Under the pieces are notes generated by a model. It searched no databases, was not told the DNA's origin, and saw only the letters and a program-made list of their open reading frames with translations. From NCBI RefSeq assembly GCF_028867935.1, contig NZ_JAPQNS010000001.1, positions 1,550,001 to 1,614,000 on the forward strand: a stretch of 64,000 nucleotides of DNA. The letters run 5' to 3'. This stretch comes from Flavobacterium sp. SUN052. Lineage in GTDB: Bacteria > Bacteroidota > Bacteroidia > Flavobacteriales > Flavobacteriaceae. A program made the translations under genes and the position numbers. This document shows, in pieces, positions 502 through 56,947 of the stretch. Position 1 is the stretch's first letter; each line of letters starts with the position of its first letter.

Positions 502-1209
502 TTACGCCACAGCCCGCGCTATGAGTTGTTGAGCAATGGGCAGCAATGTTTCTTCTTCGGGGTATGGGTGTTCGCTTTCGAGCCGGTAGGTAGCCGGATT
601 GGGCAAGTGCGCGTATCGACGAATCAGGTCGAGCTTGAGCGACTCAAAAGGAGTTGTGAGCCCACGCCGAACACGATCGACAAACTGGAACCGGACTAGT
701 CTACCACCCGGTACCCGGTCGGCGTAGAGTGTTAGGTTAAATTGGTAAATAGCTGTTTCGTAGCCCCGCTTAAAATGAAGGAACAGGTATCCTTCTGCGG
801 GTTTGATGGGCAACAGACCAACAGGCTCAAGTGTCAGGGTAGCGGCAATATCCTGCCAAAGTTGCTGCCCTTCTGTCAGCATCTGGTTAAATCGTGGCAG
901 AGCAAAATCAATTATGGAATCCATTTCGGCCATAAATGGGTCGTCCGCATGCTCAGATTTATATTCAATTCGGGGTGGTGGACCGCTAATTCCAGACACT
1001 CGCTTGGGAAAGGCCGAGTTAAGCGTACCTTTGCCCCGCCGAAAACAAAGGCTTGATTCGTAGTGGTTGCGCAGTTCGGGAATATCAGGGCAGAGTTTAC
1101 GGTCATCGAATCGTTTCCGAACAGCCTGTAAATAAGCCAAAACGACATATTTTTTGTACTCGGCATCAATCCAGTCCCGTGTTAGCCAATCAGCATCTAG
1201 TGTATTCAT
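502..1209 (-). CDS. Conserved-looking hypothetical protein, about 235 residues
   Basis: I do not recognise a family. The protein is soluble, without signal peptide or membrane segment, and rich in aromatic and charged residues. Its first 90 residues look helical (repeated Trp/Tyr in DADWLTRDWIDAEYKKY), and the second half looks beta-rich (GYLFLHFKRGYETAIYQFNLTLYAD). The frame is open to 1308 through a non-conserved Cys-rich extension; I placed the start at the ATG at 1209 because the downstream sequence has normal composition. It is divergent from groES with about 240 bp between them. No function is proposed. Confidence 0.6.
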   Translation of the reverse strand: MNTLDADWLTRDWIDAEYKKYVVLAYLQAVRKRFDDRKLCPDIPELRNHYESSLCFRRGKGTLNSAFPKRVSGISGPPPRIEYKSEHADDPFMAEMDSIIDFALPRFNQMLTEGQQLWQDIAATLTLEPVGLLPIKPAEGYLFLHFKRGYETAIYQFNLTLYADRVPGGRLVRFQFVDRVRRGLTTPFESLKLDLIRRYAHLPNPATYRLESEHPYPEEETLLPIAQQLIARAVA

Positions 1210-1451
1210 GAGTAGTGAGCGACTTGTTGCGATGGGATAATTTATGGCATTAACGCCGAAACACCAACTTTTGTATGCCATTTTCTGGCAGTCTCCATCG
1301 AAATTCACTCTGTTCGTTCAAAACGCTTTATCCGAAGCGTAAGACTGCAATTTTGACAGGCTTGCTTAACTGGCACAACATTTGGTAATCGGGCAGTGTC
1401 ATACTAATCGGTGTATAACCAATTTTTAATAACCTTAATCACATTCCTGTC

Positions 1452-1748
1452 ATGACAACAGCGATGGAAGACGTACAAGTGAACGTAAAACCCCTGGCAG
1501 ACCGCGTGCTCGTAGAAGCAGCACCGGCTGAAGAAAAAACGGCTTTCGGGATCATTATTCCGGACACGGCCAAAGAAAAACCCCAACGTGGCACAGTAGT
1601 AGCGGTTGGCAATGGCAAAAAAGACGAGCCGCTGACCGTTCAGGTAGGCGATACGGTTCTCTACGGCAAATATGCCGGCACAGAGATCACAGTGGAAGGC
1701 AAAGAGTATTTGATCATGCGCGAATCCGACATCTTCGCTATCCTTTAA
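1452..1748 (+). CDS. groES: Co-chaperonin GroES (Hsp10)
   Basis: A 98-residue protein of the usual GroES length. It has the N-terminal [11 protein letters not shown] strand, the mobile loop region ([27 protein letters not shown]) that contacts GroEL, and the closing [26 protein letters not shown] segment. It caps GroEL rings and encloses folding substrates in the cytoplasm. groEL follows 118 bp downstream on the same strand. No CIRCE element (TTAGCACTC and its inverted partner) is visible upstream, so HrcA control is not supported by the sequence. A few extra N-terminal residues (MTTAMEDVQ) leave the exact start between two ATGs open. Confidence 0.97.
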
Positions 1749-1751
1749 TTT

Positions 1752-1837
1752 AAATGATGAATCGGTACGCCGAGCGGATAAGCGATAAATAGTTTGCCTG
1801 CCAGACATTTATCCTTCATGCCGTTTCTTCATCATTT
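1752..1837 (+). repeat. 10-bp inverted repeat in the groES-groEL spacer
   Basis: AAATGATGAA at 1752-1761 is matched by its exact reverse complement TTCATCATTT at 1828-1837. The 66-nt loop holds further ATAAAT/ATTTAT-like pieces. The 118-bp gap is long for this operon; the hairpin may tune the groES to groEL transcript ratio or stability. No T-run follows, so it is not a standard terminator. Confidence 0.4.
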
Positions 1838-1848
1838 ATCATTCATAA

Positions 1849-3504
<1,656 letters not shown>

Positions 3505-3524
3505 TTCCCTGATGTAAAGTTTAT

Positions 3525-3562
3525 AAAAACGCCCCCGGTCGAGAAACTGGGGGCGTTTTTTT
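3525..3562 (+). terminator. Rho-independent terminator of groES-groEL
   Basis: AAAAACGCCCCC at 3525-3536 pairs perfectly with GGGGGCGTTTTT at 3549-3560 across a 12-nt loop, and a T-run continues to 3562. It starts 21 bp after the groEL stop. The A-run on the left arm means it could also work for the convergent PhyH gene. Confidence 0.93.
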
Positions 3563-3585
3563 GTGGGTATTGAGTGAGCGTTGTA

Positions 3586-4323
3586 CTATACATCCAAAAT
3601 ATGCCTTCCTGCTTCACCGATACGCTCTGATGTTTCCTGGGTTATATATTTCTTTTGATCAATTTGCTGGGGCTGATCTCTCGTACAAAAATAGCTATGG
3701 ATGCTACGTCGGTCGTGGGCTGTTTGATTGGTTGTTCCGCCGTGCCACACGTGTGAGTTGAAAATAAATACCGAACCGGCGGGGGCAATGATCCGAATTT
3801 CATCGGGATGCTTGTCGTTAGGATCTGCCATGCCTTCATCAGGTAAAACGCTCGATTTGTGCGTTTTAGGGACAATGCGGGTGGAACCGTTATGCTCGGT
3901 AAAATCATCTAACAGCCAGATACTATTACAGACTTTGTAGGTGTTATCAACAGCCGCATTTTTCCAATCGACATGAAGCTTTTGATGCCCTTTACCAGGT
4001 TTTGCCGCCCGATAATTGAGCGACGACAATTTGTAGTGCGTCCCTAAAACGGCTTCAATGCCAGCCAACACCCGGGGATGCGTGTAAAACACATCGAAAA
4101 TCGGCCCTTTATTAACCAAATCCGCCAATCGGTCTGCACCCTCCTCTTTTGGATGGCGGATATATTTTGACTCTGCTAGTTCCGCGCCTGCATTGTCGCC
4201 TTCGACTTGCATTAATTCAGCCAGACGATCGTTGACTTGACTGACTTGTGCTGGGGTCAATAATTGGCCCAAATCGAGATAACCGTAAGTATCTAAAAAA
4301 TCAATTTCCTGTTCGGTAAGCAT
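3586..4323 (-). CDS. Phytanoyl-CoA dioxygenase (PhyH) family oxygenase
   Basis: A 245-residue Fe(II)/2-oxoglutarate-dependent oxygenase. The metal facial triad is visible as His117 and Asp119 (KLHVDW) plus His194 (SHVWHGG), with a likely 2-oxoglutarate-binding Arg near 205 (DRRSIHSYF). The TRIVPKTHK segment is also typical of PhyH proteins, which hydroxylate or halogenate diverse small molecules. The substrate cannot be inferred. It is convergent with groEL, and divergent from the VOC gene with its own promoter. The ATG at 4323 follows a good promoter box by about 30 nt. Confidence 0.88.
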   Translation of the reverse strand: MLTEQEIDFLDTYGYLDLGQLLTPAQVSQVNDRLAELMQVEGDNAGAELAESKYIRHPKEEGADRLADLVNKGPIFDVFYTHPRVLAGIEAVLGTHYKLSSLNYRAAKPGKGHQKLHVDWKNAAVDNTYKVCNSIWLLDDFTEHNGSTRIVPKTHKSSVLPDEGMADPNDKHPDEIRIIAPAGSVFIFNSHVWHGGTTNQTAHDRRSIHSYFCTRDQPQQIDQKKYITQETSERIGEAGRHILDV

Positions 4324-4354
4324 ATGAAGGTATAGTAAGCGTAGAATGATTAGG

Positions 4355-4381
4355 CAAACCTAAAAGTGGACGCGAGTACAA
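4355..4381 (-). promoter_or_regulatory. Predicted Bacteroidota-type promoter of the PhyH gene
   Basis: On the minus strand, TAGGTTTG (plus-strand 4355-4362) fits the TAnnTTTG -7 consensus, and TTG (4379-4381) lies 16 nt upstream as a -33 box, one short of the usual 17-23 range. The ATG is 31 nt beyond the -7 box. Confidence 0.5.
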
Positions 4382-4415
4382 TTTTCCTTATTTTCGGCCA
4401 AACCAATTACGTCGC

Positions 4416-4805
4416 ATGCTTCAACTCAACCAGGTTCATCACATTGCCATTATTTGCACCAACTACGCCGTTTCAAAACAATTTTACACCGATGTGCTGG
4501 GACTCACAGTCATTCAGGAAGTGTTCCGCGAGGAACGACAATCGTACAAGCTCGATCTGGCGCTGAACGGCCATTACATCATCGAGTTGTTCTCTTTTCC
4601 CAACCCACCCAGCCGCCCCTCCCGACCTGAAGCCGCCGGTCTGCGCCATCTGGCTTTTGCCGTCGATGATATTCAGGCAACTATCAATACGTTGCACACG
4701 CACAATGTGGAGGCCGAGCCCATACGGATCGATGAATTAACCGGTAAGCAGTTCACGTTCATTGCCGACCCCGATGGTTTGCCTATTGAATTTTATGAGC
4801 AGTAA
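4416..4805 (+). CDS. VOC (vicinal oxygen chelate) family metalloprotein, glyoxalase-like
   Basis: A 129-residue protein with the two beta-alpha-beta-beta-beta modules of the VOC fold. Likely metal ligands are visible: His8/His9 (VHHIAI), Glu57 (YIIELF), His78 (LRHLAF) and Glu125 (PIEFYE). It resembles the small lactoylglutathione lyase-like proteins often named GloA2 or SMU1112c-type, though substrate specificity is not readable from sequence. It is divergent from the PhyH gene (92-bp gap). A hairpin with a T-run ends the transcript, so it is probably monocistronic. Confidence 0.88.
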   Translation: MLQLNQVHHIAIICTNYAVSKQFYTDVLGLTVIQEVFREERQSYKLDLALNGHYIIELFSFPNPPSRPSRPEAAGLRHLAFAVDDIQATINTLHTHNVEAEPIRIDELTGKQFTFIADPDGLPIEFYEQ

Positions 4806-4826
4806 TGGCAATGGCAGGTCTCTATA

Positions 4827-4867
4827 ATAAACCATAATTGGGTTAATATATATTATGGTTTATTTTT
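4827..4867 (+). terminator. Probable terminator of the VOC gene, overlapping the next promoter
   Basis: ATAAACCATAAT at 4827-4838 is perfectly complementary to ATTATGGTTTAT at 4852-4863, with a 13-nt loop and Ts to 4867. The hairpin is AT-rich and therefore weak. It overlaps the promoter of the downstream TonB_C gene, so a regulatory role is an alternative. Confidence 0.6.
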
Positions 4868-4868
4868 G
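4838..4868 (+). promoter_or_regulatory. Predicted promoter of the first TonB_C gene
   Basis: TTG at 4838-4840, a 20-nt spacer, then TATTTTTG at 4861-4868 matches the Bacteroidota -33/-7 consensus. Transcription would start around 4873-4876, which excludes the in-frame TTG at 4866 as a start and supports the ATG at 4896. Confidence 0.72.
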
Positions 4869-4895
4869 GCTCACTATTGTAGCCACACTAAACAA

Positions 4896-6356
4896 ATGAG
4901 CAGAGCCTTAGCACTTCTCTTTTTACTGGTAGCTTTTGCGACAAATGCTCAACAACCTGCTTACCACGATTTTGAAGTTCACCAACCCGCCGAACCACAT
5001 GGTGGACTGAACTTACTGCATCAGTTTATAACTGTGAATATCCGCAAGCCATTTATGGCGCAGGTGGCCAACACCAAAGGACTGGTGATCGTGCAGGGTG
5101 TGGTAGAGCCCGATGGCCAAGTTACGGAGATATCCCTGGTTCGTTCGTTGCGACCTGACTGTGACCGTGAGGCCATTCGGGTGTTTTCGCTGTTCACTGC
5201 CTGGAAACCCGCTCAGAAAGACGGGAAAGCAGTCCGACAACTGGTTACACTCCCGATACAGTTTGGACATAACGAGCCAGTACAGTACCAACTTGGCCTT
5301 GCTACGCGCTATTATGACGCTAATCTTAGTGTTGTCGGCGCATCCGATTCATTGGCTGTAATACGGTCGGACGTTCCTACCGATACGCTTGGTTTTCCAA
5401 CAGGCGACCTGACGCTTTTTAAACGCAAAGGCGGTAAATGGAAGAAAGAAACGACTATCCTTTTTGCACGGGAGCCTTACAAAGCCGGAGGAACGTTGCT
5501 TATTCACCGGTTACCTAACCTCTCGGCGTTTGGACCCGTATATCACCTCAGCCGAGAGGGCGTTCTGCTTTCGAATTATGTACAATCACCCGACGGAACT
5601 GTCGGGTTGAGACTTGATCGGAACGCCAGGGGAATGGTTATTAAACGCACCGAACCGATAAATAGCCGAATAATAGAAACCACCTGGTACGCCAACGGGC
5701 AGTTGAAGTCCGTTATGGCTACAGCAAGTCATCAGGATCAGCCGGTCAAGTCTTTACCTGAGCAGGTTCTGACCTATTGGGACAGTACGGGGGTTCAGCT
5801 TATCAGCGATGGCAATGGCACCATAACGCACCATTACCCTGTCAATTCAGCAGCTAATCCTAAACTTCAGACGATGCTGATAAAGCAAGGAGTTTACGAG
5901 AAAGGACTGAAACAGGGACGATGGATGGGTGGCTACGTGGATGGATCGTATTGGGAGGAGGAATTCTACGATAAAGGCCAGCTACAGGTGGGTCGATTTA
6001 CGCACATAGGCAAGTCAGATACCGTGATGTATTCGCCAACCGAACGTCCACCCCAGTTTGTTACGGGTATCTCGGGATTAAACCAGTTTATAGCCAGAAA
6101 CCTTAATCCGGAAGTAGCCCAAAAGGCGGGTGTGCACGGTTGGGTCCAAGTTCGCTTTGTTGTAAATACAGACGGTAAACTAAGCGATATTGTCATTCAA
6201 CGGGGTTTGCACCCGGCTGCTGACGAGGAAGCAATACGCATTGTGAAAGCCATGAATGGTAACTGGCCCAACCGCTGGAATCCGGGCCTTCGGAATGGGT
6301 ATCCGGTTAAGATGACTTATACATTACCCATCCCGTTCGGTACAAATCAACTGTAA
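4896..6356 (+). CDS. Secreted protein with two TonB C-terminal-like domains, copy 1
   Basis: About 486 residues, starting with a Sec signal peptide (MSRALALLFLLVAFATNAQQ). A TonB_C-like module lies near residues 38-125 (GLVIVQGVVEPDGQVTEISLVRSLRPDCDREAIRVF) and a second at the C-terminus, about 390-482. Between them is a MORN-like or antitoxin-like stretch with the pattern YEKGLKQGRWMGGYVDGSYWEEEFYDKGQL. TonB_C domains in TonB contact outer-membrane receptors, but these proteins lack the usual N-terminal membrane anchor and proline-rich spacer, so energy transduction is unlikely; a periplasmic or surface scaffold role is inference. The next gene is a paralogue, a clear tandem duplication. Confidence 0.8.
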   Translation: MSRALALLFLLVAFATNAQQPAYHDFEVHQPAEPHGGLNLLHQFITVNIRKPFMAQVANTKGLVIVQGVVEPDGQVTEISLVRSLRPDCDREAIRVFSLFTAWKPAQKDGKAVRQLVTLPIQFGHNEPVQYQLGLATRYYDANLSVVGASDSLAVIRSDVPTDTLGFPTGDLTLFKRKGGKWKKETTILFAREPYKAGGTLLIHRLPNLSAFGPVYHLSREGVLLSNYVQSPDGTVGLRLDRNARGMVIKRTEPINSRIIETTWYANGQLKSVMATASHQDQPVKSLPEQVLTYWDSTGVQLISDGNGTITHHYPVNSAANPKLQTMLIKQGVYEKGLKQGRWMGGYVDGSYWEEEFYDKGQLQVGRFTHIGKSDTVMYSPTERPPQFVTGISGLNQFIARNLNPEVAQKAGVHGWVQVRFVVNTDGKLSDIVIQRGLHPAADEEAIRIVKAMNGNWPNRWNPGLRNGYPVKMTYTLPIPFGTNQL

Positions 6357-6362
6357 CTCAGA

Positions 6363-6393
6363 TTTGCGCTACTATCTATTTTCCCTATTTTTG
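6363..6393 (+). promoter_or_regulatory. Predicted promoter of the second TonB_C gene
   Basis: TTTG at 6363-6366, a 19-nt spacer and TATTTTTG at 6386-6393 form a near-ideal Bacteroidota promoter, 25 nt before the ATG at 6419. The two tandem paralogues therefore each have their own promoter rather than forming a simple operon. Confidence 0.75.
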
Positions 6394-6418
6394 AATACTA
6401 TTTTAGCCTTTATAATCA

Positions 6419-7870
6419 ATGAACCACACCCTAATTCTTGCCTTGTTGCTGGTAGCTTTCACGGCTCACGCTCAACAAACGGCTTACACCAACTTTGAGG
6501 TACAACAAGCAGCTGAACCACAAGGAGGCTTTCAGGCCCTAAATCAGTTTGTAGCTGTCAATCTCCGCAAACCGTTTCTGGCTGAGGTGGCCAACAAAAA
6601 GGGAATGGTCATTCTTAAAGGCGTAGTCGAACCCGACGGTCGCATCGCCGAGGTGTCGGTAATCCGATCCCTTCGGCCTGATTGCGACCTGGAGGCCATG
6701 CGTGTCTTCTCACGCTTCAACGCCTGGAAACCCGCCCAGAAAGACGGCAAAGCGGTCCGACAACAAGTGACGTTCCCCATTCAGTTCAGAGGCAACGAGC
6801 CCGTTCTCTATGAGAATGGTATTGCCATTCGGTATTTCAACAACGCCTTTCAGGCAGTAGCCTCGCCCGATTCAGCTGTCATTCGCTTTGAAACGCCTAC
6901 CGATACATTGGGAATTCCAACGGGTAATCTCGTTTTCTTTAAACGTGACAACAAAAAATGGAAAAAAGATGGCGAAATGGAGTTTTTTCGAAACCCGGTC
7001 CGCAGGCCGATGGGTAAGGAACCAGTTTTTAGTGTTGGGCACCGCGACGCTACCTACAAGTCGTTTGGTTCCGTTTATACAGTCGATAAACAAGGCGGTA
7101 TTATTGAGGAGCGGGTTTATAATCTCGACCGAAAACTGATCCATTCCCTAACCCGAAATGCAGCTTTACAAGTCACACGCCTTGAAACCCTAGACGATGG
7201 TCAGACAACCGTCAATACCTGGTACAACAATGGCCAGTTGAAATACAAAATGATTCATCCCCAGTATATTGGCAGCAAAACCTTACCCGATCAAATGCTT
7301 GTTTTTTACGATAGCACGGGTACGCAGGTGGTCAGCGAAGGTAACGGACAGGTGACCATGCAGGAGCGGGTTCGTTCAGCGATCGACACCAATCGATACT
7401 CCGTTTTTACAGAACAGGGACTTTACGCGAAGGGGTTGAAACAAGGCCGCTGGACCGGTCAGCAGGCTGATGGTTCGCATTGGTACGAAGAACAGTATGA
7501 CAAAGGTGTGTTGACAGTGGGGAGATCAACCTACATCGGGCAATCTGACACGCTTACATACAATCAGCCGGAACAACAGCCTGAATTCAAGGGTGGTATG
7601 CAAGCGCTGAGCCAGTTTTTAGCCAGTAATATCCGATACCCAGCAGAGGCTCAGCGAGCCCGCGCACAGGGTCGGGTCTTTGTGAGCTTTGTGGTCTGTC
7701 AGGATGGTAGCCTATGTGACTTCGACGTGTTGAAAGGGTTTCATCCTGCCGCTGATGCCGAGGCCTTGCGCGTTGTAAAAGCTATGAGCGGGCAGTGGAA
7801 ACCAGGGATTCAACGAGGTCGGCCGGTGAGAGTAAAATATAACCTGCCTATCAATTTTGCCTTGAACTGA
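6419..7870 (+). CDS. Secreted protein with two TonB C-terminal-like domains, copy 2
   Basis: A 483-residue paralogue of the preceding gene, aligned almost end to end by eye. It has the signal peptide MNHTLILALLLVAFTAHAQQ, the same N-terminal TonB_C module (KGMVILKGVVEPDGRIAEVSVIRSLRPDCDLEAMRVF), the same central GLYAKGLKQGRWTGQQADGSHWYEEQYDKG segment, and a C-terminal TonB_C module with the canonical form GGMQALSQFLASNIRYPAEAQRARAQGRVFVSFVV. The C-terminal module here keeps the usual 'YP..A...G..G.V.V.F.V' pattern better than copy 1, which has NPEVAQKAGVHG. Role unknown; exported to the periplasm or cell surface. Confidence 0.8.
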   Translation: MNHTLILALLLVAFTAHAQQTAYTNFEVQQAAEPQGGFQALNQFVAVNLRKPFLAEVANKKGMVILKGVVEPDGRIAEVSVIRSLRPDCDLEAMRVFSRFNAWKPAQKDGKAVRQQVTFPIQFRGNEPVLYENGIAIRYFNNAFQAVASPDSAVIRFETPTDTLGIPTGNLVFFKRDNKKWKKDGEMEFFRNPVRRPMGKEPVFSVGHRDATYKSFGSVYTVDKQGGIIEERVYNLDRKLIHSLTRNAALQVTRLETLDDGQTTVNTWYNNGQLKYKMIHPQYIGSKTLPDQMLVFYDSTGTQVVSEGNGQVTMQERVRSAIDTNRYSVFTEQGLYAKGLKQGRWTGQQADGSHWYEEQYDKGVLTVGRSTYIGQSDTLTYNQPEQQPEFKGGMQALSQFLASNIRYPAEAQRARAQGRVFVSFVVCQDGSLCDFDVLKGFHPAADAEALRVVKAMSGQWKPGIQRGRPVRVKYNLPINFALN

Positions 7871-52741: not shown

Positions 52742-53626
52742 ATGTCGACAATCGATAGAAAAACCTTTCTGAAAGAGATTTCCCTGTTAGCCGGGGTCTC
52801 CATTCTTTCCGGGCCAGCGTTTGCTTCGGGCCTTACTACGAGCGACAAAGCAGGCATCAAACTAGGTTTTGTGACCTATTTGTGGGGTAAAGACTGGGAC
52901 TTGCCCACGCTGATTAAAAATTGCTCCGACACTGGCATCCTGGGCGTTGAGTTACGCGTGGAGCATGCCCACAAGGTGATGCCCGACCTGAATGTGGCCC
53001 AACGCCAGGAGGTAAAAAAGCGATTCGCCGACAGTCCGGTGAAGTTGGTTGGGCTGGGGACAAACCAGCAGTTTGACTATGTAGAACAAGACAAACTAAA
53101 AGCTTCGATTGAGCGTGCAAAAGAGTTTATCCGATTAAGTGCCGACGTGGGCGGAACGGGCGTGAAGGTGAAACCTAATGCCCTCCACAAAGAGGTTCCT
53201 GTCGAGAAAACGGTTGCCCAAATTGGCGAATCGCTTAACGAACTGGCCAAATATGCCGCTGAGTTTGGCCAACAAATACGACTGGAAGTACACGGCGAAG
53301 AAACCCAGGAGCTGCCCATGACAAAACGGATTATGGATGTGGCCACCCATCCGAATGCCACCATCTGCTGGAATTGCAACCTACAGGACCTGAACGGAAA
53401 GGGTTTCCAATCCAATTTCGACTTAGTCAAAGATCGGTTTGGTGCTACCTGCCACGTTCGCGAACTCGACCGCACCGATTACCCCTACCAAGATCTGCTG
53501 AACAATCTGGCCAAGATGAATTATAAGGGTTGGGTGCTCCTCGAATGCCACACCAACCCAGCCGATAAAGTAGCCTCGATGAACCAACAACGAGGTGTCT
53601 TTGACCGGATGATTGGGAAGGTTTAG
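52742..53626 (+). CDS. Exported sugar phosphate isomerase/epimerase-like TIM-barrel protein
   Basis: 294 residues. A signal-like N-terminus (TFLKEISLLAGVSILSGPAFASG) is followed by a xylose-isomerase-like TIM barrel: GVELRVEHAHKVMPDLN, FIRLSADVGGTGVKVKPNA, RLEVHGEETQ, TICWNCNLQDLNG and YKGWVLLECHTNP. Acidic and His residues at the ends of strands (Glu in LEVHGEE, Glu/His in LLECH) would bind a metal. Many Bacteroidota secrete such proteins in carbohydrate-use loci; substrate unknown. It has an independent position after the terminator of the molybdenum hydroxylase. Confidence 0.85.
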   Translation: MSTIDRKTFLKEISLLAGVSILSGPAFASGLTTSDKAGIKLGFVTYLWGKDWDLPTLIKNCSDTGILGVELRVEHAHKVMPDLNVAQRQEVKKRFADSPVKLVGLGTNQQFDYVEQDKLKASIERAKEFIRLSADVGGTGVKVKPNALHKEVPVEKTVAQIGESLNELAKYAAEFGQQIRLEVHGEETQELPMTKRIMDVATHPNATICWNCNLQDLNGKGFQSNFDLVKDRFGATCHVRELDRTDYPYQDLLNNLAKMNYKGWVLLECHTNPADKVASMNQQRGVFDRMIGKV

Positions 53627-53762
53627 GGGCGTAACCAGGCAGCATGCGCAGTGCATACGTTGTAGCGTCTTTTAGGGAAAAATCTATGTAAATATCTAAC
53701 AATGAATGTAATACTATTACTTATGACAAAAAAAATTGGATAACAAGAAATCGTATGTTATG

Positions 53763-53794
53763 TTGCGGTTGAGCCCAAAACATTAGTATATTTA
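53763..53794 (+). promoter_or_regulatory. Predicted promoter of the TIR-receiver gene
   Basis: TTG at 53763-53765, a 21-nt spacer and TATATTTA at 53787-53794, one mismatch from TAnnTTTG. Transcription would start near 53800, about 38 nt before the ATG. Confidence 0.5.
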
Positions 53795-53837
53795 TGAGTA
53801 AAGAGAAAATGCTTGAAACACCTTACTTCTTATAAAA

Positions 53838-54764
53838 ATGAGCGTCTTTGTCAGTTACAATTCGAAAAATGAAGATTTTGCAGAATTGGTAAAAATGAAA
53901 TTAGAGAAAGAGAACATAGAAGTATGGAAAGATACATATCAGATCGATGCTGGTACAGAATGGAGAAATGAAATTGATCAAGGACTATTAAATTGTTCTG
54001 TAATTATTGTTCTCTTGAACGAAATTTCGACCAAATCACCTTATGTCACTTATGAATGGGCATTTGCCTTAGGAGGAGGAAAACATATTATTCCTATTTT
54101 AGTCGAAGAATGCGAACCTCATCCAAGAATAGATATTTTACAATATCTAAATTTTAAGAATGGACAAAGACCATGGGATAAATTAATTGAGCGAATAAAG
54201 AAAATTGGAATTTCAAGTCAAAAATTAAAAGTTTCTGATTTAACTGTTGAGGAGTTAGAGAAGCTTATCGAAGGAAGTAAATTTCTTGCAAAAGAGACTG
54301 CTAAAGCTGAAGGACGGCCAGTTAATAAAGATGAAGTGACAAGTTTTGCAAATCAAATTGTAACAGCTAAAACATTATTTGAGGCTAAGCCTAAGCAATC
54401 TAATGTTATTTTATGGGTTGACGATAGACCGGACAATAATATTCATGAAAGAAAAGCCCTTGAATTGATTGGTTTTAAGTTTGAATTAGCCTTATCAACT
54501 AATGAAGCACTAAAATTATTGGCAAAGAATAAATATGTTGCAATAATATCAGATATGGGCAGGGCTGAAGGCCCTCAAGAAGGGTATTTATTACTCGAAG
54601 AATTACGTAGAAAGGATAAAACAACTCCATTTTTTATTTACGCGGGTTCAAATACGATAGAACATAAGAAAATGGCTAAAGAAAAAGGTGCACAAGGAAG
54701 CACAAATAGTTCATCGGAGCTTATAGGATTAATAACAAGTTATATTCAACCAAGTAATTATTGA
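53838..54764 (+). CDS. TIR-domain protein with a C-terminal degenerate receiver domain
   Basis: 308 residues. TIR domain at about 1-125 (VFVSYNSKNEDFAELVKMKLE, with the putative NADase Glu73 in YVTYEWAFAL). Linker about 126-188, helical. A receiver-like domain at about 190-305 (VILWVDDRPDNN with Asp195/Asp196, and Asp239 in IISDMG); the usual beta-5 Lys is replaced (GAQGSTNSS), and the beta-4 region reads FFIYAGSN, so phosphorylation is doubtful. TIR proteins in bacteria deplete NAD+ or make signal nucleotides in anti-phage defence. Codon use is strongly AT-rich compared with both flanks, which points to transfer. A second TIR gene follows on the same strand. Confidence 0.85.
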   Translation: MSVFVSYNSKNEDFAELVKMKLEKENIEVWKDTYQIDAGTEWRNEIDQGLLNCSVIIVLLNEISTKSPYVTYEWAFALGGGKHIIPILVEECEPHPRIDILQYLNFKNGQRPWDKLIERIKKIGISSQKLKVSDLTVEELEKLIEGSKFLAKETAKAEGRPVNKDEVTSFANQIVTAKTLFEAKPKQSNVILWVDDRPDNNIHERKALELIGFKFELALSTNEALKLLAKNKYVAIISDMGRAEGPQEGYLLLEELRRKDKTTPFFIYAGSNTIEHKKMAKEKGAQGSTNSSSELIGLITSYIQPSNY

Positions 54765-54783
54765 AACTTCGCCTACCACGAGG

Positions 54784-54818
54784 TTTGGGAAAATAAGTGT
54801 GGACGAAAATTATCTTTG
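54784..54818 (+). promoter_or_regulatory. Possible promoter of the second TIR gene
   Basis: TTTG at 54784-54787, a 23-nt spacer and TATCTTTG at 54811-54818 match the Bacteroidota consensus. The ATG at 54990 would be about 170 nt from the start, leaving a long leader. The rest of the 225-bp gap shows no gene. Confidence 0.42.
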
Positions 54819-54989
54819 ACATTTGTAATTCTGTCGTGCTTTAGTTCGTAGTTAGACATTTACTATTTATCTTTTAGTTGTTATCTTAGCAAAATATTTT
54901 CGAACAGTACTGATTCCGGGCTTGCATGTACCTATTCCCATACTTCGCTAAGACCTGTATGTTAGAGCAAACTCTTTCAACAACATCTT

Positions 54990-56231
54990 ATGAGTGACAA
55001 AATTTTTGATTATGACGTTACACTCTCCTTTGCTGGCGAAGACAGAGAATTTGTTCGATGTGTTGCAGGGCAACTAAAAGATAAAGGGTTTAAAATTTTC
55101 TATGATGAGTATGAGCAAGTAAACTTATGGGGTAAAGACTTATATACGCATTTAGATGATATTTATCGGAATAAATCCAGATACTGCGTAATGTTTCTTT
55201 CAAATTTTTATAAACAAAAGCTATGGACAAATCATGAAAGGGAAAGTGCTCAAGCTAGAGCTTTTAAAGACAATACTGAATATATTTTACCATTTAGATT
55301 AGATGATACAGAAGTTCCAGGAATTCGTGAAACCACTGGCTATCTTTCTATAAAGAACTTTAATTGCGAGCAATTATCTGAAGCTATCTCAAATAAACTA
55401 AACTCAAATCAGGTTAAAAAACGGGAACTAGAGCCCGAGGAAAAGAAAATCAATAAATTATTAGAACCTGGAATTATCGAACTTGAATCTGGAGAATTTG
55501 AGATTAGAATCAGAAAGTATGATTTCTTTTCTCAAAGATTAACAAGAGCATTCCCAGGAGTGCGGGGTTTCCAATGGTTTACAAATCCCGAAGAGATAGT
55601 AAGAAGGTTATCCATTCTATTAGCAAAGCCTCTCTCATTCGAAGTTTTCCCTGGAAAGAATTTTGATTTCGGTGGTATCTCAACTCCCATTTGGTGGTTT
55701 CGAGGAGGAGCATCAATGCCAATAAAGAACTTTGAAGTTATAAGTAAAACAAAATGCTTACTTGATTCTGACGAGTTAGAGGTTGAAAAACTTGCGGTTT
55801 ATAAAAATCCAACTCACTACAGAGAATTTATTTATTTAAAGTTGAAAGCAGAGCTTCCTGTTGAAAACGGAAGTGACACCAAAACCTCAATGGACTTCCA
55901 ACTGGGTTACAAAAAATTTGCAACGCAAGATTATGCAATATACAAAGGGCAAATAATCAAAACTGAAGAATATGAAGACGGAGCTATGGTTGTTGATGGG
56001 AAAATTATTCGTTTTGAAGAAGAGCCAATCCACCGTTATAGGTTTCTCACACCTTATAACATTATAATTTGCGCCCAATCTTCAGTTTATAACTCATCTG
56101 AAGCGGATGGAATGTTCGGATATTTTTTAGACAAAATTCTTGAGACAGGGAATGACGAAGAATTCGAAACTTTCCTTCTAAAATTAAAAGAAATTACAAA
56201 TGATTCGCCAGACATAATCGACTTCTACTAA
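54990..56231 (+). CDS. TIR-domain protein with an unrecognised C-terminal domain
   Basis: 413 residues. TIR domain at about 1-140: DVTLSFAGEDREFVRCVAGQLKDKGFKIFYDEYEQVNLWGKDL, SRYCVMFLSNFYKQKLWTNHERESAQARA with putative catalytic Glu83. This is the 'SFAGEDRE' class common in bacterial TIR effectors. The remaining 270 residues (about 145-413) form a beta-rich domain I cannot assign (for example FEVFPGKNFDFGGISTPIWWFRGGASMPIKNFEV), likely a sensor or partner-binding region. Codon use and base composition match the neighbouring TIR gene and differ from the rest of the window. A role in phage defence by NAD+ depletion is inferred from the domain. Confidence 0.82.
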   Translation: MSDKIFDYDVTLSFAGEDREFVRCVAGQLKDKGFKIFYDEYEQVNLWGKDLYTHLDDIYRNKSRYCVMFLSNFYKQKLWTNHERESAQARAFKDNTEYILPFRLDDTEVPGIRETTGYLSIKNFNCEQLSEAISNKLNSNQVKKRELEPEEKKINKLLEPGIIELESGEFEIRIRKYDFFSQRLTRAFPGVRGFQWFTNPEEIVRRLSILLAKPLSFEVFPGKNFDFGGISTPIWWFRGGASMPIKNFEVISKTKCLLDSDELEVEKLAVYKNPTHYREFIYLKLKAELPVENGSDTKTSMDFQLGYKKFATQDYAIYKGQIIKTEEYEDGAMVVDGKIIRFEEEPIHRYRFLTPYNIIICAQSSVYNSSEADGMFGYFLDKILETGNDEEFETFLLKLKEITNDSPDIIDFY

Positions 56232-56389
56232 TGTTAGTCCATCTATTAGTAAAACTTAATTTTCAGATAGTCAGTAGTAGTAATTTTATTATATTTTGGT
56301 TCTGGGCTTGAGAATTAAGTACCAAATCAAGTTAGCTGTGTACCAAAAGCACCGTATCAATAATCGTAAGCAACTTCAACTAACACAGT

Positions 56390-56947
56390 ATGGCAAAAGA
56401 GTTATCACCAGAATTGCGGGAAGATTTACTCGGCGTTTTGAAAACCCGTTTTGAGAAAAACAAGAACCGCCATGTAGAGCTTGAATGGGTTAATGTTCAG
56501 GCGAAACTGGAAGCCAATCCAGAAAAATTATGGTCTCTCGATGAAATGGAAAGCACCGGTGGTGAACCAGATGTCATTGGCTATGACGAAGGTTCAGGCC
56601 AATACATTTTTTATGATTGCTCAGCCGAAAGCCCCCAAGGTCGCCGAAGTATTTGTTATGACCATGAAGCCCTGGAGTCTAGGAAAGCAAATAAGCCAGC
56701 CAATAGCGCTATCGAGATGGCTTCTGATATGGGCATTGAGATATTGACGGAAGAACAATACCGGCAATTGCAGCAACTGGGAAAATTCGATTCAAAAACG
56801 TCGAGCTGGGTGAAAACCCCTTCGGAGATCAGAAAGCTTGGCGGTGCCATCTTTTGCGATTTCCGCTTCGGTCGCGTCTTTACCTATCATAACGGGGCTG
56901 AATCCTATTATGCTGGCCGAGCGTTCCGTGGCTCGCTTCGGGTGTAA
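56390..56947 (+). CDS. DUF4256 family protein
   Basis: 185 residues. The family features are clear: LLGVLKTRFEKNKNRHVELEWVNVQAKLEANPEKLWSLDEMESTGGEPDVIGYDEGSGQYIFYDCSAESPQGRRSICYDHEALESRK and the C-terminal LGGAIFCDFRFGRVFTYHNGAESYYAGRAFRGSLRV. DUF4256 proteins are widespread and of unknown function; many occur in stress-related settings. Composition returns to the genome average here, so it marks the right edge of the AT-rich TIR island. 158 bp separate it from the TIR gene. Confidence 0.9.
   Translation: MAKELSPELREDLLGVLKTRFEKNKNRHVELEWVNVQAKLEANPEKLWSLDEMESTGGEPDVIGYDEGSGQYIFYDCSAESPQGRRSICYDHEALESRKANKPANSAIEMASDMGIEILTEEQYRQLQQLGKFDSKTSSWVKTPSEIRKLGGAIFCDFRFGRVFTYHNGAESYYAGRAFRGSLRV

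Follow-up and report, generated by a model that had tools for sequence, protein, structure and literature searches.

An AT-rich island with two adjacent TIR-domain genes and a candidate sensor module found behind different effectors

We analysed a 64,000-nucleotide stretch of Flavobacterium sp. SUN052 DNA (contig NZ_JAPQNS010000001.1, positions 1,550,001 to 1,614,000; hereafter the window). An AT-rich island within it carries two adjacent genes for TIR-domain proteins. Gene 1 encodes a TIR domain followed by a receiver-like domain (TIR-REC), and gene 2 encodes a TIR domain followed by a C-terminal part that we call module X (TIR-X). The features of the island, by position in the window, are as follows.

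53660..56389 (edges approximate), no strand: AT-rich island between the TIM-barrel and DUF4256 genes, from a 100-base GC profile and from z-scores of -4.8 to -6.1 for GC and third-position GC (GC3) of the open reading frames (ORFs)
53838..54764, + strand: gene 1, TIR-REC protein of 308 residues (ORF; TIR_2 match 2.2e-24, Response_reg match 1.5e-7)
53844..54191, + strand: TIR domain of gene 1, residues 3-118
54054..54056, + strand: codon of Glu73 of gene 1, the putative catalytic Glu (Glu in 50/50 rows; aligned to the Glu of BtTir)
54399..54761, + strand: pseudo-receiver domain of gene 1, residues 188-308
54552..54554, + strand: codon of Asp239 of gene 1, the receiver Asp site (50/50 rows; aligned to the RcsC receiver)
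54765..54989, + strand: intergenic gap of 225 bases between gene 1 and gene 2
54990..56231, + strand: gene 2, TIR-X protein of 413 residues (ORF; TIR_2 match 3.3e-16)
55011..55409, + strand: TIR domain of gene 2, residues 8-140
55236..55238, + strand: codon of Glu83 of gene 2, the putative catalytic Glu (aligned to the Glu of the AbTir WTNYE motif)
55452..56228, + strand: module X of gene 2, residues 155-413 with a conserved core at about 176-400; a candidate sensor or input domain, common to proteins with other N-terminal parts

The initial annotation of this DNA had described two same-strand TIR proteins of 308 and 413 residues, and both ORFs indeed lie on the plus strand with a TIR_2 domain in each. 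It had also noted codon use richer in A/T than in the neighbouring genes, which agrees with our counts. The 100-base GC profile places an AT-rich stretch of 2.7 kb between roughly 53.66 and 56.4 kb. The GC content is 0.324 in gene 1 and 0.345 in gene 2, and the mean is 0.499 (standard deviation 0.030) in 49 other ORFs of the window, which are at least 150 residues long, largely non-overlapping and in some cases perhaps not genes. GC3 is 0.21 and 0.28, respectively, versus a mean of 0.535 (standard deviation 0.053) in the same 49 ORFs. The corresponding z-scores of gene 1 and gene 2 are -5.8 and -5.1 for GC, and -6.1 and -4.8 for GC3. The suggestion that each gene has a plausible promoter did not hold: a sigma-70 scan of positions 53500-56500 gave 10 sites versus 9.9 expected. 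Using a Bacteroidota-type consensus, we scanned the upstream gaps and found no promoter signal for gene 1 and one poor spot at 54811, 173 bases 5' of gene 2, with a spacing of 22-23.

The putative catalytic residues proposed earlier, Glu at position 73 of gene 1 and at position 83 of gene 2, were verified and are conserved across relatives. Glu73 is the counterpart of the BtTir Glu, and its column contains Glu in all 50 rows of alignment A3. Glu83 aligns with the Glu of the AbTir WTNYE motif; of the 16 rows of alignment A1 that were counted, 14 have Glu in this column and the other two have Gly (A1 has 23 rows, and the seven without a TIR or SEFIR N-terminus were excluded from this count). This Glu is the catalytic residue in AbTir and BtTir. 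Both genes have the conserved Glu of bacterial TIR NADases. Other bacterial TIR effectors assemble and cleave NAD+ on activation, and both proteins of the island would be NADases as well. In the structural model of gene 2 the vicinity of Glu83 is poor, with a predicted local distance difference test (pLDDT) score below 50 at residues 82-91, and the TIR part is weaker than X. A structure search with this model returned TIR domains in the matches listed, and no match in BFVD at E≤0.001. Recent duplication of one TIR gene was ruled out, since the two TIR domains are 22% identical (E 0.14).

A search with the gene 2 protein gave 1356 relatives at E≤0.001, the best of them 78% identical. Only 12 of the 120 relatives listed cover at least 88% of the query, and most of the others correspond to the TIR part only. 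In the gene 2 model, X has block pLDDT values of 81-98 over residues 161-400, except for 65 at residues 221-230. We compared 16 diverse X sequences with domain libraries. Pfam gave nothing convincing (the best was a single-member match, E 0.0046), and PADLOC gave one single-member match only (E 0.018); a sequence search of the PDB with X yielded chance matches only. Searching with the X part of protein P0133 returned 15 proteins including the query. X was found in 3 of the 395 genomes of the class, and it occurs once in the window's genome.

It turned out that X stands behind N-terminal parts of different kinds. It follows TIR_2 in gene 2 and its close relatives, and in the more distant P0135 and P0137. 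It follows SEFIR in P0242, P0245 and the Roseibium protein of L090, which matches TIR_2 too, and GT4-conflict (PF20706, E 8e-103) in P0133, P0134 and P0241. GT4 is named as an effector in a passage of PMC8195603. In P0243, X lies behind a class III cyclase (PF00211), with a weak PADLOC match to PycC (E 8e-5); this cyclase-X fusion raises the question of whether X can switch on messenger synthesis. On a Bradyrhizobium plasmid (L089:4057-5504) X occurs with NTase-conflict (PF20697, E 6e-47), the two lying in overlapping frames like a broken or frameshifted fusion. X also follows a TIR closest to the PADLOC 'TIR-TM' family in P0244, a CAP12/Pycsar-like TIR (E 0.003, below the cut-off) in L154:7782-9095, two membrane helices recognised by eye in P0246, L155 and L158, and an N-terminal part with no assigned family in P0136. 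The X gene of L154 adjoins an SLFN_AlbA_2 gene and is near ORFs (953-6426) that resemble by eye cas9, cas1 and cas2. Thus, X is a constant C-terminal domain found with effectors of several types, and we count at least six chemistries: NADase-type TIR, SEFIR, glycosyltransferase (GT4-conflict), nucleotidyltransferase (NTase-conflict), nucleotide cyclase and membrane helices. Because X follows such different enzyme chemistries as well as membrane helices, its shared job would most simply be control and not catalysis. The occurrence behind many different effectors suggests that X is probably a sensor, either of infection itself or of a signal that arises during it. The neighbourhoods of X genes are varied, and the loci read share no partner gene, which makes it likelier that X detects infection directly than that it reads a messenger made next door.

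The gene 1 protein has 1505 relatives at E≤0.001, the best 80% identical, and TIR and the receiver motif occur together in 114 of the 120 relatives listed. With the register taken from the alignment to the RcsC receiver, the receiver Asp site is kept in 50/50 rows, the Thr site is Ala in 41/50, and the Lys site is Lys in 1/50. By its sequence, this domain is a pseudo-receiver in which the Asp is kept and the Thr and Lys sites are lost. The alternative is a working phospho-receiver: a histidine kinase encoded elsewhere in the genome would phosphorylate Asp239 and turn the TIR on, in a relay like that of Detocs. The Asp and the acidic pair are conserved, so the gene 1 receiver could still be phosphorylated, and substitutions at T or K of receivers need not abolish phosphorylation, according to the part of PMC12632262 that deals with them. 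Against this stand the loss of the Thr and Lys sites and the absence of a kinase gene adjoining gene 1 (orphan kinases in the rest of the window's genome were not searched); the E. coli neighbourhood described below has no gene named as a kinase either. We regard such a relay as distinctly unlikely.

The receiver was also found apart from TIR. A receiver 60% identical to residues 186-303 of gene 1 occurs in a protein of E. coli in which membrane helices were recognised by eye. Of 5426 E. coli genomes, 26 encode this protein, and the phylum sample has similar proteins in two genomes. In Rhizobium, such a receiver lies within a SAV_2336 protein adjoining MoxR. On these matches, gene 1's kind of receiver is joined to different effectors. 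The earlier proposal of TIR effectors whose non-TIR parts are the likely sensors is supported. The E. coli protein (L087:5599-6366 and L149:8001-8771) is encoded between yfgI and guaA, has 256 residues and is annotated 'response regulator'. By eye it consists of two membrane helices and a pseudo-receiver, and the genes in its vicinity include one for an AAA ATPase and a broken integrase-core gene. It looks like an undescribed defence candidate.

We also determined how gene 1 and gene 2 are distributed, in genome searches that scored only the top few candidates per genome. Among ten Spirosoma and Fibrivirga genomes, gene 1 had a partial match in 6 and a full-length match in 0. In 222 genomes of the S. 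fluviale family there was a match in 138, none full-length among the matches listed. The best of them, a 212-residue TIR protein of genome G895, covers residues 1-139 only, and among 390 genomes of the order G895 alone passes 1e-15. This protein adjoins ORFs resembling, by eye, a MoxR/vWA cluster. A 101-genome search gave a match in 21, all partial except that in the window's own genome, and a 395-genome search gave a match in 132, where besides the own genome none was full-length among the best matches listed. Thus, none of the genome searches run returned a full-length relative of gene 1 outside the window's genome. Gene 2 had a match in 11 genomes of a 299-genome search, and a scan of named genomes returned no relative of it. 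We do not read the 101-, 299- and 395-genome searches as evidence on Spirosoma, because the kinship labels behind them look wrong: the supposed congeners have genomes of 2.4-5.9 Mb, compared with 8.1 Mb for the window's genome, whose flank protein matches Spirosoma. In a Spirosomaceae genome (L156:5457-19223), a gene-1-like TIR protein lies by ORFs that are, by eye, DUF4062-, MoxR-, vWA-, TIR- and CHAT-like, and this cluster resembles a ternary conflict system.

We therefore propose, with about even confidence, that the island holds two independent standalone TIR immune proteins, each input-gated and with a swappable effector, acquired at one site. In each protein, the N-terminal TIR effector would be held off until the C-terminal input domain is triggered. 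Once triggered, the TIR domains would assemble with one another and either cleave NAD+ or produce a TIR signal, so that an infected cell would cease to grow. The pseudo-receiver of gene 1 would probably answer a bound nucleotide-like ligand and not a histidine kinase, and module X of gene 2 would probably detect infection or a signal that arises during it. Receivers free of histidine kinases in conflict systems have been proposed as nucleotide-responsive switches in the relevant section of PMC8195603. Transfer probably brought the two genes together at a single site, and they would not have to act jointly. We infer the NADase activity, the defence role, the ligands and the independence of the two proteins from the evidence given here. 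A more specific proposal is made tentatively, with somewhat less than even confidence: X would be an undescribed immune sensor acting directly on a phage-derived cue or on a metabolite made in infection, serving at least six effector chemistries, and the receiver of the island's second sensor-TIR protein would be a ligand sensor and not a phospho-switch. A limited literature search found neither TIR-REC nor TIR-X described in print. X stands behind such different effectors, and none of the libraries used contains a family model for it; this makes it a handle on what solitary immune proteins detect. What is learned from one X protein would inform all X proteins.

Several observations weigh against this reading. 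The only two TIR_2 genes of the 8.1-Mb genome (listed as 99.99% complete; E≤0.001, a count made with the TIR_2 model alone) are adjacent, on the same strand and equally AT-rich, and this could mean a joint function. The initial annotation had proposed a two-gene defence module. In its Thoeris-like form, one TIR would make an NAD+-derived signal, and the C-terminal domain of the other protein would sense it and free its own TIR. The occurrence of X behind so many effectors makes a sensor of a diffusible signal conceivable. Gene 1 reaches the ThsB_TIR cut-off with 21.2 bits. About 2.3 kb from the X gene of G1375, which a contig break has reduced to a fragment at the contig end, lies a TIR-like ORF (L159:2772-3167, E 9.5e-12 to a TIR model). 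On the other side, the TIR model found no second TIR ORF in the remaining loci with X or the receiver that were read, L088, L089, L090, L092, L149, L154, L155, L157 and L158, although this model missed the CAP12-like TIR of L154 and so can miss some. The co-occurrence check found a full-length gene 1 relative in 0/3 X-bearing genomes, a tiny sample. The genes are separated by the gap of 225 bases, and the ThcB4 model gives 25.5 bits versus a cut-off of 220. The two TIR domains did not arise by recent duplication, and the C-terminal parts that follow them differ. Each kind of C-terminal domain is also joined to other effectors elsewhere, in most cases with no TIR gene beside it. A two-gene module is possible but found little support, and we consider its Thoeris-like form unlikely.

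The genes adjoining the TIR pair encode TIM-barrel, DUF4256 and aldo/keto reductase proteins in the Pfam scan. They are metabolic and do not form a rich defence island. This also speaks for a role outside immunity: the pair could be cargo of mobile DNA that serves another purpose, such as inter-bacterial conflict or control of NAD+ under stress, or it could be transferred DNA in decay. However, neither reading frame is disrupted, and invariant residues are present in the two domains; the partners of X are conflict-system domains, and one X gene is near a CRISPR-type locus. We consider a role outside immunity very unlikely.

Two further adverse points concern X. Its predicted fold comes from the full-length gene 2 model, in which X was folded together with the TIR part. 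Strong matches to the bSEFIR profile of PADLOC (PDLC03957; E 1.8e-37, 1e-60 and 9e-64) are seen in the SEFIR-X proteins, each as one stretch reaching into X: residues 1-403 of 416 in P0242, 139-464 of 531 in P0245 and 1-275 of 407 in L090. Either SEFIR drives the match or the bSEFIR tail may be a divergent X; therefore, X may not be new. In the latter case, the sensor would already be known, and only its combination with these effectors would be new. X alone gave 0/16 matches to the bSEFIR profile at E≤10. Gene 2 gave no match at E≤1 and has TIR_2 and not SEFIR, and it was dropped as a bSEFIR member on these two negative results.

The standalone immune proteins that we propose would have been acquired by transfer, and we examined the flanks of the island for this.

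52742-53626: TIM-barrel gene, left flank
56390-56947: DUF4256 gene, right flank

The left-flank protein is 80-85% identical to nine Spirosoma records (one of them a metagenome-assembled genome) and 78% identical to Fibrivirga, and the Spirosoma matches support the Spirosoma host assumed in the initial annotation. We examined 42 loci with the left-flank gene in Spirosoma, Fibrivirga, Dyadobacter, Larkinella and Rhabdobacter, up to 10 kb per side (less for L036 and L067), and neither TIR gene was near it in any of the 42. Together with the foreign composition, this comparison of relatives supports the earlier claim that the DNA was transferred, and the TIR pair looks like recent, patchy cargo. 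Other flank genes were present in some of these loci: DUF4256 in 2, XDH-like in 2, AraC in 4, GH3 in 1 and a distant aldo/keto reductase in 4. No exact empty site was found among the 42 loci, because the order of the other flank genes varies as well. The motif TTCYGGGCTTG occurs at 54914-54924 and 56300-56310, 65-80 bases before gene 2 and the DUF4256 gene. As an insertion repeat or att site this 11-base motif is not above chance (2 seen versus 2.77 expected in the window). DNA searches of the own genome found no good second copy of the 225-base gap (best other match E 0.07) and no good other copy of the second gap sequence, which carries the motif at 56300. There is no tRNA in the window and no Rfam match in 50-60 kb. 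Gene 1 and X had no match in phages. Among viral contigs, alignment scans gave no match, and a single-protein scan gave one TIR-only relative. On plasmids, gene 2 had 18 records, mostly TIR-only, with 1 covering at least 80%; gene 1 had 8 records, 0 of them covering at least 80%; and X alone had 3 records.

Finally, we compared the island with known systems. The statement that no known partner (ThsA, STING, cyclase) is present stands for the adjacent genes scanned with Pfam and PADLOC. Gene 1 is exactly at the ThsB_TIR cut-off (21.2 of 21.2 bits), but no ThsA adjoins it and the score for ThcB4 is below its cut-off, and Thoeris was rejected. CBASS and Pycsar were rejected as well, with no cyclase gene among the adjacent genes scanned. 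Detocs has a sensor kinase and receiver partners in one operon; here, the genes next to gene 1 are TIM-barrel, TIR-X, DUF4256 and aldo/keto reductase genes, and this candidate was not retained. SPARTA TIR-APAZ proteins likewise have an N-terminal TIR in a protein of about 420-450 residues, and gene 2 has a TIR fold match. No Argonaute adjoins gene 2 among the neighbouring genes scanned, and X may or may not be an APAZ domain. In TIR-SAVED, CAP12/Pycsar TIR and Thoeris TIR effectors, the TIR is likewise gated by a second domain or a partner. Their gating domains are others, and no SAVED, STING, ThsA or cyclase was found among the adjacent genes scanned.

Cam2 is described, in a portion of PMC11229360, as a CRISPR-associated protein with an N-terminal transmembrane part and a C-terminal receiver, without a histidine kinase, predicted to bind cyclic oligoadenylate. 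Gene 1 resembles it in having an N-terminal effector and a C-terminal receiver, and the E. coli membrane-helix/receiver protein has the same plan (Cam2 was compared by description and not by sequence). Gene 1 was not assigned to Cam2, which belongs to a type III CRISPR locus: gene 1 has TIR and not membrane helices, and the adjacent genes are non-CRISPR (Cas10 was not searched elsewhere in the genome). A TIR and pseudo-receiver protein would be a soluble counterpart of Cam2-type membrane proteins for finding the receiver ligand. A close likeness in plan to the proposed standalone proteins is found in the systems with a variable effector and a constant C-terminus, for example, GreA/B-C (EAD10/GreA-B-C) and TRADD-N proteins. 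Interchangeable N-terminal effectors (TIR, nucleotidyltransferase, EADs) are joined to a constant part in these systems, and GreA/B-C proteins are mostly standalone, as described in the corresponding sections of PMC8195603. Gene 2 has no GreA/B-C or TRADD-N match, and its constant part is X. Effector-sensor immune proteins themselves are already known, and judged from the domain comparison the new element would be module X.

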